Source: Ignavibacteria bacterium CG1_02_37_35
Lineage (GTDB): Bacteria > Bacteroidota > Ignavibacteria > Ignavibacteriales > Ignavibacteriaceae
Assembly: GCA_001871325.1 (NCBI GenBank)
Contig: MNVA01000008.1
Location: 1 to 40,520, forward strand
Length of the DNA stretch: 40,520 nucleotides
Reading direction: 5' to 3'
Made by a program: the position numbers and the translations under genes. This document shows, piece by piece, positions 8,937-39,899 of the stretch (within the stretch, counting starts at the first letter, position 1; each line of letters starts with the position of its first letter). The notes beneath the pieces were generated by a model. The model was not told the DNA's origin. It did no database searches and saw only the letters and a program-made list of their open reading frames with translations.

Positions 8937-9674
8937 TTACTCTGCTAATAATTTTGAAATTAATCCGGTAACAAAATCAGCGTTTGATTTCTTAAGTACT
9001 TTAAAAGTATCTGACGAGTAATAGGCTCCTTGCTGCAAGAGAATAACCATATCAGCCAACTCATATAACTGTACATCAACGCTTTCGCTAAATATCTGAA
9101 TAATTTTTTCTTCTTTCAACTTTAAAATTAATTTAAAGATAGATTTTTTAATTTCTAAACTGCAGTTCATAAACGGATCGTCGTAAAATATTATTTTCGG
9201 CTCCGTAAGGTACGTCCTTATAAACAGAAGCGCTTTTTGTGTTGATATCGTTAATTTTGCAGGTCGTTCTGTAAGTATTTTTACCGGTAATCCGAAGAAG
9301 TCCATTAGCCCGGAAATTTTCTCTTTTTTTCTGTCAAGCGATATTTCCGGGAAATGAAAATCATAAGGTACCAAAAGATTTTCGAGAACATTTAAATTTG
9401 AAAGTAGCCCGCCATGCTGAAAGACAAAACCGATTTGTTTTCTTACAGCTCTTTCTTTTTTCTGAAACGAAGTATACACATTTTCCCCGCCAAGTAAAAT
9501 CTTCCCTTTATCAGGTTGAATTAAGCCAGCAAGAACTTTGAGCACATTTGAATTCTCCTCCGGCTGATCGGATAAAATACCGTAAAGCTGCCCTCCAAAC
9601 GAAAATGAAAAATCTTTTAGTAGTTGAGTTTCCTTTTTATAGAATACTTTATTTGCTTCTAACTTTTGCATCAT
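8937..9674 (-). CDS. ABC ATPase-like protein (MlaF position) with degenerate catalytic motifs
   Basis: Overall ABC fold pattern (VLAGLIQPDKGKILLGGENVY, IGFVFQHGGLLSNLNVLENL) but Walker A, signature, Walker B Glu and H-loop are altered. Confidence 0.85.
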   Translation of the reverse strand: MMQKLEANKVFYKKETQLLKDFSFSFGGQLYGILSDQPEENSNVLKVLAGLIQPDKGKILLGGENVYTSFQKKERAVRKQIGFVFQHGGLLSNLNVLENLLVPYDFHFPEISLDRKKEKISGLMDFFGLPVKILTERPAKLTISTQKALLFIRTYLTEPKIIFYDDPFMNCSLEIKKSIFKLILKLKEEKIIQIFSESVDVQLYELADMVILLQQGAYYSSDTFKVLKKSNADFVTGLISKLLAE

Positions 9675-36700: not shown

Positions 36701-37438
36701 TCAGTCATCAATAGGCTCAACACCAAGTTGCTCAAGTTGTTCAAGGGCATCCTGCATGGCTTTGAGCGCTTCGGGTGAGTGCCCATGCCAATCAATGATT
36801 TCACTTGTAACCCGTAGCGGCTCACGGGAGCGGAATGACTTCGTCGGATTACCACGAAATTTCTTATCCGTCAAATTGGGGTCATCTTCTATCACGCCGG
36901 TCGGTTCCACAATGTAAATTCTGCCCGGACCATCACCGGCGGCTAACTCCGCTCCCCATGTAGCTGCATCCAATGTGCGGGTAAGATAGACGTAGGTTGT
37001 TCTCCTAACTTTATTGCCAAAGTTAGGAGTAAGTCCCGGCTTGATAAGATCTCCCGGTTTTAGATCAGCGCGTGTGCCATGGTAAAGAGTCCACTCCGTG
37101 ATCTCGCCAATAACCTTCAACGGCTCTCGGGAACGAAATGACATCCAGGGATGACCCGGAGACTTCCAGTCTGTCTGGTTAGAGATATCCTCGACTTCTC
37201 CGATCAGTTCTACTATATAAACTCTTGCCTGATCTTCGCCGACCGCAATTTCTGCCTCCCAAATCGCCGCATCCAAATTGGGAGTCAGGTAAACATAGGT
37301 TGTTATCTCGTCCCCACCACCGACGTCCAGAGGATTGCCGGACTTGATCAGATCTCCCGGCATCGGTTCAGTCCGTGTACCATGGTAGAACCGTTTCGTC
37401 CGTAAGTCGTCGGTTGTACCGGGAATGCTTTTGTCCAT
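36701..37438 (-). CDS. Tandem two-domain Arr-like (rifampin ADP-ribosyltransferase-like) protein
   Basis: Two copies of YHGTR...PGDLIK...TTYVYLT..LDAA.W.AE...YIVE..G..ED...TD....P..SFRSREPL.V; the second is followed by the Arr-type tail WHGHSPEALKAMQDALEQLEQLGVEPIDD. Confidence 0.9.
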   Translation of the reverse strand: MDKSIPGTTDDLRTKRFYHGTRTEPMPGDLIKSGNPLDVGGGDEITTYVYLTPNLDAAIWEAEIAVGEDQARVYIVELIGEVEDISNQTDWKSPGHPWMSFRSREPLKVIGEITEWTLYHGTRADLKPGDLIKPGLTPNFGNKVRRTTYVYLTRTLDAATWGAELAAGDGPGRIYIVEPTGVIEDDPNLTDKKFRGNPTKSFRSREPLRVTSEIIDWHGHSPEALKAMQDALEQLEQLGVEPIDD

Positions 37439-37665: not shown

Positions 37666-39899
37666 TCACCTCAACAACACCATCTTCTTCGTTTGTATAA
37701 ATTCACCGGCACGAAGTTGATAAAAATATATCCCGCTTGCCAACTGTTGATTGCCAACTGCCGACTCAAATTCTACTTCATAACTTCCCGGTTGTTTTTC
37801 TTCATTTATCAAGTTTGCAACTTCTCTTCCTAACGCATCATAAATTATTATTGTAACGTTACTTTGTTCGGGAATGGAATAACTTATTATCGTCTTCGGA
37901 TTAAATGGATTGGGGTAATTTTGTCTTACTATGAAGGTAAACGGATTATTTGGTACCGGTTCATTAATCGAAGTAACCATTTCTGAAAGTGGTCGTTGCC
38001 AAATAACACCTGAACCATAAGTCCCGGCAAATACATCAGAACCAATAGCGGTAATTGCCCAAACATCAGCATTCGGTAGATTTGCGTCCACATCAGTCCA
38101 ATTCGTTCCATAATCCGTTGAAACAAAAATACTACCGGAACTGGTACCTGCAAATAAATATTCACCAATAAAAGTGAGACATCGAACGTCTTTATTAGAA
38201 AGCCCATTATTTACAGTCAACCAGTTCGTACCGTTATTGGTTGAACGAAATATACCGTCGCCCGTCGTTCCGGCGAAGATAGTTGTGCCAACATAGGCAA
38301 GCGCAATGACCTCTTTATTCGTCAATCCCAAATTTACAGCAGTCCATGAGCTTCCATAATCCGTGGATAGGAATATTCCCTGCGCATCGGTAGCCGCGTA
38401 AAGATTGCTATCAATAAGAGCCAATGCTCTTACCGGGGCACTGCCGTTGGTTATACTTTTTATACTCCAATCTACACCGTTATTTGAGGAGGATAAAACC
38501 TTCCCATACCAACTGCCTGCAAAAATAATTGTATCCCTCCTGGCAAAACAGAAGATTGTTTTATTTGCTTCACTTTGGGTAACACGTGTCCAGTTTTTGC
38601 CATTATTAATTGAACGAAATACTCCACCATCAGACAAAGGATGATCTTGACCGGTGCCAGCTAAGAGGAAAGAATCTGAAATTACAAGTGAACGAACGTA
38701 AGGGATTGATAATCCGCTGTCAAGCACAGCCCAGTTTTCTCCGCGATTGTTTGATAGAAATAAACCTTGTCCATATGTCCCTGCATAAATTGAATTATCT
38801 TTGGCAGTAAGTGTAGTAACAAAAGTGTTTGTCAAACCGTTATTCGATGCGATCCAGTTTAAACCGTTATCATCAGAAACACAAACACCCCCTCCGTATG
38901 TACCTGCCAAAAGTTTTTCCCTTTCGGTTTTTAAAGCTTTAATTCGAAGGGAAGTCAAACCACCGTTAGATTTTTGCCAGTTAATCCCGTTATCGCCGGA
39001 TAAAAATACACCTTCATTTGTACCGGCAGCAAGGTTGGTTTTGGTTTTAGCCAGAGCGAGAACCCGTAAATTGGACAATCCGGTAGTTTCCCAGCTAATT
39101 CCGTTGTCTTTAGGGCACCTCTAAAATCTTGCTAAGAAACCTTCAAGGTTTTTATTTTAGCTAAGTTCGATAAAATTTTAACATAACAAAATATGGTAAA
39201 GATAAACCTTGAAGGTTTTTAGAGATGCCCTTTAGATAATGATACCCCTTCATTGGTACCTGCAAAGATGCCCGCTGAATCTATTAAAATAGTGTTCACC
39301 CATTTTGAAGACGAAGACATTCCGGAATCAGAAGCAATCCAAGTTTTACAGGTGTCTGAAGATATGAACAAACCTAATCTATGTGTTCCTGCTAAGATGT
39401 TTAATCCATCCGTTGACAAAGATGAAACATAAGTATTCCACAGACCCGAAAAAGCCCATGTAACGCCGTTGTCTTTAGAAAGGTAAATACCGTCCCAGGT
39501 TGCCGCAAATAGATTATTCCCGAGTGAAGTAAATGCTGTTACATAAGGGATAGGAAAACTAACTGCTGTCCATGTTAAACCTTTATTTTCCGACAGAAAA
39601 ACTCCGCCTCCTTCCGTACCTGCCACAAGATTTTGCCCTGAAAAAGCAAGTGCATTAATGGTAGGGTTTGTAAGACCGTTATTAAGAGCGGTCCAACTTA
39701 ATCCGTCATCGGTAGAGAGAAAAACTCCCCCCTTATTCGTACCGATATAAAGATTAGAAGTATCCGAGATGATACAATTTATCGTCCCACCGTATGGACC
39801 GTTAGTCTGAGTCCATTGCGCTAACAAAGTTTCTACGTTAAACAACATGCAGATTAAAACGATGGCTAATTGAGATACCCTTTTCATATAAAACCTCAT
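37666..39899 (-). pseudogene. Secreted beta-propeller (BNR/Ycf48-like repeats) protein with T9SS type A sorting domain, split by MITE insertion
   Basis: N-terminal piece 39219-39899 and C-terminal piece 37666-39078 (larger open frame); C-term QNYPNPFNPKTIISYSIPEQSNVTIIIYDALGREVANLI...KKMVLLR; joins in frame when 122 bp are removed. Confidence 0.9.
39113..39230. mobile_element. 118-bp MITE with 14-bp TIRs (GGGCAYCTCTAAAA) and TTTA target-site duplication
   Basis: GGGCACCTCTAAAA ... TTTTAGAGATGCCC; flanking TTTA at 39109-39112 and 39231-39234; internal AAACCTTCAAGGTTT and AAACCTTGAAGGTTT palindromes. Confidence 0.92.

Follow-up and report, generated by a model that had tools for sequence, protein, structure and literature searches.

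ABC transporters are ATP-driven by definition. Among them, the Mla systems are the closest described relatives of the locus studied here. In E. coli, the contact of the ATPase MlaF with the permease is mediated by the coupling helix of MlaE (PMC7790496). It is disputed in which direction Mla systems transport and whether they require ATP, and a transfer of phospholipids from MlaD to MlaC, which took place without ATP, has been reported in vitro (reviewed in PMC10212509). A single ABC site is assembled from two chains, Walker A, Walker B and the H-loop coming from one of them and the signature from the other; in Pdr5, the losses are split over the two nucleotide-binding domains (NBDs) and one site is complete (PMC7756269). 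For the MCE system Pqi, the described components do not include an ABC ATPase (PMC10897342). A survey of Mla systems from 2023 identified MlaF by synteny and noted that its annotation is uncertain, and in its passages on this protein a loss of motifs is not mentioned (PMC10665443). In the open PMC literature, which defined the scope of our search, we found no report on a dead MlaF or on a homodimeric ABC transporter with a comparable loss.

The window analyzed here is the whole stretch of 40,520 nucleotides of contig MNVA01000008.1 from Ignavibacteria bacterium CG1_02_37_35. It contains a compact operon of three genes (Table 1). The ORF of the ABC subunit, hereafter called pseudo-MlaF, begins with ATG, encodes 245 amino acids, overlaps mlaE by 4 nt and is separated from the MCE gene by 3 nt. 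An earlier, sequence-only reading had assigned it to the MlaF slot between mlaE and the MCE gene, an assignment with which coordinates and Pfam results agreed, and had claimed that the ABC scaffold is kept, which was borne out by a match to PF00005 (E=3.6e-13) and by the NBD fold of an AF2 model. The MCE protein possesses a single MCE domain (residues 40-98) followed by a long C-terminal region. Thus, an MlaE permease, an MCE protein encoded in the same operon and an ABC-fold NBD adjoining the permease, as typical of MlaEFD, were all present, but the NBD lacked functional ATPase motifs. With 52.6 bits, pseudo-MlaF scored below the curated cut-off (441) of the NCBIfam MlaF equivalog NF008809.

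Table 1. Position of the operon genes and of the former ATP-site motifs of pseudo-MlaF in the window
Feature	Coordinates	Strand	Evidence or remark
mlaE-type permease, 267 aa	9671..10474	-	PF02405 E=5e-56; distinct MlaE subfamily
pseudo-MlaF, NBD of ABC fold that lacks the catalytic motifs	8937..9674	-	PF00005, AF2, 6xgz match
MCE (MlaD-type) protein, 340 aa	7911..8933	-	PF02470 E=7e-8
Former Walker A, residues 35-43 SDQPEENSN	9546..9572	-	no GK[ST]; predicted extra helical turn with E39, E40
Segment behind the Q-loop that faces MlaE, retained, residues 83-103, FVFQHGGLLSNLNVLENLLVP	9366..9428	-	information content
Retained R137-P138-A139, immediately before the lost signature	9258..9266	-	conservation analysis
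Former signature, residues 141-145 LTIST (canonical LSGGM)	9240..9254	-	alignment
Walker B region, residues 160-167 KIIFYDDP, with Asp in place of the catalytic Glu	9174..9197	-	alignment
Former switch-His region, residues 196-200 SESVD, with S198 aligned to the His	9075..9089	-	alignment

The genes upstream of mlaE (PHP, ROK, B12-binding, FMN reductase) vary among genomes and gave no clue to the function. Most relatives harbor a fourth operon gene downstream of mce, which encodes a TPR protein with a lipobox and was found linked in six genomes; in the genus of the window no dedicated ortholog of it was seen. Loci with the TPR lipoprotein gene after mce belong to several phyla. At two verrucomicrobial loci (L202 and L203), mlaE is directly followed by the gene for the TPR lipoprotein, with neither an NBD nor an MCE gene in between, an arrangement that possibly represents a further step of reduction. 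MlaE genes without an adjoining NBD gene were also observed: one on another contig of the same genome (C27:1847-2476) encodes a canonical-looking MlaE (PF02405, E=1e-71), has neither an NBD nor an MCE gene as neighbor and is followed by a methyltransferase gene, three reside in Bacteroidota MAGs, and three in Cloacimonadota just after dnaB-like genes. Elsewhere on the minus strand of the window, we noticed a 245-aa protein with two tandem rifampin ADP-ribosyltransferase (Arr-ms) domains (36701-37438) and a protein with BNR/Asp-box repeats and a C-terminal sorting domain of type IX secretion (37666-39078).

The loss of Walker A, signature, catalytic Glu and switch His, the main claim of the sequence-only reading, was confirmed for the window protein by alignment, Walker B ending with D165-D166-P. 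The Q-loop had been regarded as normal. This holds true for the genus of the window, in which the Gln is present; in the rest of the family it is missing, most relatives carrying D, E, N, R or A instead. A sister genome of the same genus (68% identity) exhibited identical losses (SNRNEENSN / LTISV / DDP), and in 13 further genomes of the family, all from other genera, Walker A and signature were likewise absent. With these matching losses, both chance and a sequencing error were excluded. The permeases of these loci form a subfamily which we defined by the MlaE profile A1, since its members scored at least 175 bits and canonical MlaE proteins at most 148 bits in the same searches. Subfamily MlaE was detected in 16 of 80 genomes of the family. 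The ABC subunit was readable in 15 of them, the sixteenth locus ending at a contig edge, and the ortholog alignment revealed that none of the 15 proteins contains GK[ST].

Since dS between the window gene and that of the sister species is saturated (2.2, at a dN of 0.23), closer pairs of dead copies with unsaturated dS were used for dN/dS. The values were 0.05-0.08 for L014/L015 and 0.08-0.26 for L130/L131/L133/L137, while canonical pairs gave 0.03-0.12. A sister species with canonical motifs together with a dN/dS near 1, which would have contradicted the sequence-only reading, was not found; instead, the catalytic loss is shared by orthologs and accompanied by purifying selection, as expected for a conserved pseudoenzyme. 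In the window and its sister species, dN amounted to 0.13 for mlaE and 0.11 for mce. Pseudo-MlaF thus evolves approximately twice as fast as its neighbors, and the constraint on it is therefore partial. Such rapid evolution, along with the missing motifs, could also be explained by gene decay within a system that is dying out, or by an assembly artefact, but 56 dead copies with open reading frames, dN/dS values far below 1, a conserved gene order, and MlaE and MCE proteins that are intact and more conserved than the ABC subunit make this extremely improbable. As the losses are conserved in orthologs under purifying selection, decay or artefact is ruled out for pseudo-MlaF, in line with the earlier view that the gene does not decay randomly. 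Judging by its motifs, the window protein is very probably a pseudo-ATPase.

The AF2 model of pseudo-MlaF showed the NBD fold with a pLDDT of 92 and a pTM of 0.89, though AF2 was trained on ABC folds and may force this fold. In a Foldseek search, E. coli MlaF (6xgz) was the closest MlaF structure (TM 0.87) and one of the best PDB matches overall, with an ABC protein from Thermotoga ranking slightly higher. The helix that begins at Lys67 in the model of a canonical MlaF of the same genome, which served as control, starts at P38 in pseudo-MlaF. P38 aligns with G64 of the canonical protein, so in the model an extra turn bearing E39 and E40 occupies the loop. Over the nine residues of the former Walker A, the mean charge was -2.25 in the dead Ignavibacteria set versus +1.55 in canonical proteins, and an acidic residue resides at position 4 or 5 of this segment in all 16 dead copies of the set. 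According to sequence and model, the former P-loop would be a site that repels phosphate.

ABC permeases are contacted at their coupling helix by the Q-loop region of the NBD. We compared the conservation of this region with that of the ATP-contacting blocks. The former Walker A block contained 1.6-1.9 bits in three dead lineages versus 3.4-3.6 bits in active ones, the signature block 2.1-2.2 bits versus 4.3 bits in canonical proteins, and the H-loop block 1.8-2.9 bits versus 3.6 bits. Residues 83-103, which include the motif SNLxxxEN, yielded 3.3-3.6 bits in the dead lineages versus 3.2 bits in canonical proteins and active relatives. N93, E98 and N99 are invariant across all three dead lineages, and the RP before the signature as well as K147 and R153 behind it are nearly invariant. 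The MlaE coupling region (ELGNMVVNQEVESL in the window protein versus canonical ELGSMRVTEQIDAM) is alike in members with a dead ABC subunit and in those keeping GK. Thus, the ATP-contact blocks drift while the segment behind the Q-loop and the coupling region of MlaE stay, from which we concluded that the nucleotide face was lost and the permease face kept. The suggestion of a structural subunit is supported by this contrast, by the loss across genera and phyla, and by the purifying selection.

Beyond the family, profile A1 gave matches in three further samples, each named after the phylum of its seed genomes: Cloacimonadota (41 of 125 genomes), Spirochaetota (37 of 247) and Verrucomicrobiota (19 of 241). 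Motifs were counted over distinct ABC subunits (F proteins) adjoining subfamily MlaE. Spirochaetota retained GK[ST] and an SxG-type signature in 45 of 47 proteins each, the catalytic Glu in 28 and the His in 22. In Cloacimonadota, GK was preserved in 5/29, signature and His in 0/29; Ignavibacteria/Bacteroidota kept GK in 3/22, the signature in 0/22 and the His in 2/22, and the 18 verrucomicrobial proteins lacked all three. Lys, signature and His were jointly absent from 56 of 69 non-spirochaete subfamily proteins versus none of the 33 canonical MlaF controls, all of which retained the five features. The 56 dead copies stem from three groups of phyla. Some subfamily members were peculiar: L065, from a Nitrospira MAG, has kept Walker A (GPSRSGKSL) next to LNHGE at the signature and DDP. 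Spirochaete loci such as L055 contain the genes for MlaE, F and MCE. The MAG of L055 is labelled Treponema, a genus which the 2023 survey lists without Mla homologues (PMC10665443).

To follow the losses, a tree was built from MlaE, a protein that does not contain the trait. On the careful tree, GK and the signature required at least 5 and 3 changes, Glu and His at least 11 and 10; a larger, quickly built tree gave 5, 3, 15 and 11 in this order. A single clade of all GK-less proteins was rejected (p-AU 0.004), by which one ancestral loss of Walker A common to all was ruled out. A clade of GK-less Ignavibacteria and Cloacimonadota was rejected as well (p 0.007) and one of Verrucomicrobiota, Cloacimonadota and Ignavibacteria weakly (p 0.026), all p values being somewhat optimistic because the groups were chosen once a first tree was known. 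A strict order, hydrolysis first and binding last, fits the Spirochaetota and was abandoned in view of L010 and L093, which are devoid of Walker A while still possessing Glu and His (L010 retains EEP and a His). From the sequences, the loss of hydrolysis residues before the binding motif would be a tendency only.

Could a canonical MlaF encoded elsewhere pair or alternate with pseudo-MlaF and supply ATP hydrolysis to the subfamily permease? The search for a second canonical MlaF, suggested by the sequence-only reading, was successful, since the genome contains two canonical MlaEF pairs (C201 and C238), each MlaF adjoining its own MlaE. Moreover, one to three further MlaE genes were present in all 17 checked genomes of the order or class that possess the subfamily, and mycobacterial MceG is reported to stabilize both the Mce1 and the Mce4 transporter (PMC9947336). 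However, the operon encodes only one NBD, itself without either half of the ATP site, whereas heterodimeric ABC transporters with a degenerate site have two NBD chains that jointly keep one complete site. Since a site is built from two chains and both Walker A and signature are gone from pseudo-MlaF, a canonical partner would be unable to rebuild it, and the proposed heterodimer was not supported. Furthermore, the coupling region of subfamily MlaE differs from that of canonical MlaE and remained unchanged when F died. In some Spirochaetota MAGs, which may be incomplete, subfamily MlaE was the sole MlaE found and its F already lacked Glu and/or His, so a second system is not necessarily required for hydrolysis residues to be lost. 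We consider a canonical partner unlikely.

Alternatively, pseudo-MlaF may have an altered site that still accommodates a nucleotide or some other small ligand, and may gate the permease as an allosteric sensor. Six dead Cloacimonadota MlaFs (L130, L131, L133-L135, L137) share the fixed motifs GSYGYYNG / ISYTSKK / INKPLFN (Y/F-Y-N-G in the Walker A, ISYTSKK in the signature and NKPLFN in the Walker B position), which hints at some new constraint on these sequences, and a Walker B-like Asp is frequently retained. The kept first Asp of Walker B, the Q-loop Gln in the genus of the window and the EEP and His of L010 make weak nucleotide binding conceivable; judging from these residues, pseudo-MlaF may bind nucleotides weakly in a non-canonical manner. 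On the other hand, in the family of the window, acidic residues occupy the former phosphate site, for which the model predicts a helix, and the residues of the former site vary between lineages, so that a common ligand site is not visible. A sensor function is thus rather improbable.

We favor, with a rough probability of two thirds, a structural NBD in an MlaE-MCE complex that works without an ATP cycle at the pseudo-MlaF subunit. This reading builds on the observed motif loss, its recurrence and the purifying selection, on the fact that operon and MlaE-facing surface were retained, and on the predicted loss of the P-loop. Pseudo-MlaF, a conserved pseudo-ATPase, would neither bind nor hydrolyze ATP. 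It would clamp the cytoplasmic coupling helix of its own MlaE permease and, by analogy with E. coli Mla, from which the stoichiometry is taken, might keep an MlaE2-F2-MCE6 assembly together. The complex could serve as a passive or gradient-driven conduit for lipids from the inner membrane through the MCE tunnel, and in most relatives the TPR lipoprotein would complete the lipid bridge. For the passive, ATP-independent step we see an even chance; energy for transport could come from another source. The recurrent loss of all ATP-holding and ATP-splitting residues from a gene that remained intact, under selection and beside its partner genes probably means that the motor was kept as a structural part of an ATP-free machine. 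The wider picture falls somewhat short of even odds: a subfamily of ABC transporters would have abandoned ATP several times independently, with the dead motor as scaffold of an ATP-free lipid bridge between the membranes and living relatives keeping the intermediates, in which Glu and His changed often and Walker A rarely. The subfamily offers natural dead mutants of the Mla/MCE machine, which would allow a direct test of an ATP-free MCE-MlaE complex, and in the Spirochaetota series one can study in which order the residues are lost.

With MlaFEDB/MlaEFD of E. coli and Veillonella, the window system shares the order permease-NBD-MCE, the MlaE and MlaD Pfam families and the NBD fold. It differs by its missing ATP-site motifs, a divergent MlaE subfamily with a coupling-helix sequence of its own, and the TPR lipoprotein in most relatives. 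Like PqiABC/LetAB, it would be an MCE transporter without an ABC ATPase, and permease, MCE protein and lipoprotein parallel PqiA, PqiB and PqiC, the latter being a lipoprotein partner like the TPR protein of the relatives; unlike there, the permease is MlaE and not PqiA/LetA, and a dead NBD has been retained. The mycobacterial Mce systems with their shared MceG illustrate that the gene for the energy source may lie outside the operon, though to our knowledge they do not contain a dead NBD in the operon. In Pdr5, TAP, CFTR and ABCG5/G8, a site kept for structural reasons has likewise lost Lys, Glu, His and signature, Pdr5 being the nearest parallel for the extent of loss, but one site remains complete in them and ATP is still bound. 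The window chain is devoid of Walker A and signature together, so its homodimer has no complete site. While the degenerate ABC transporters known from a review of them keep at least one working site, the loss found in the window and its relatives is recurrent, graded and complete.
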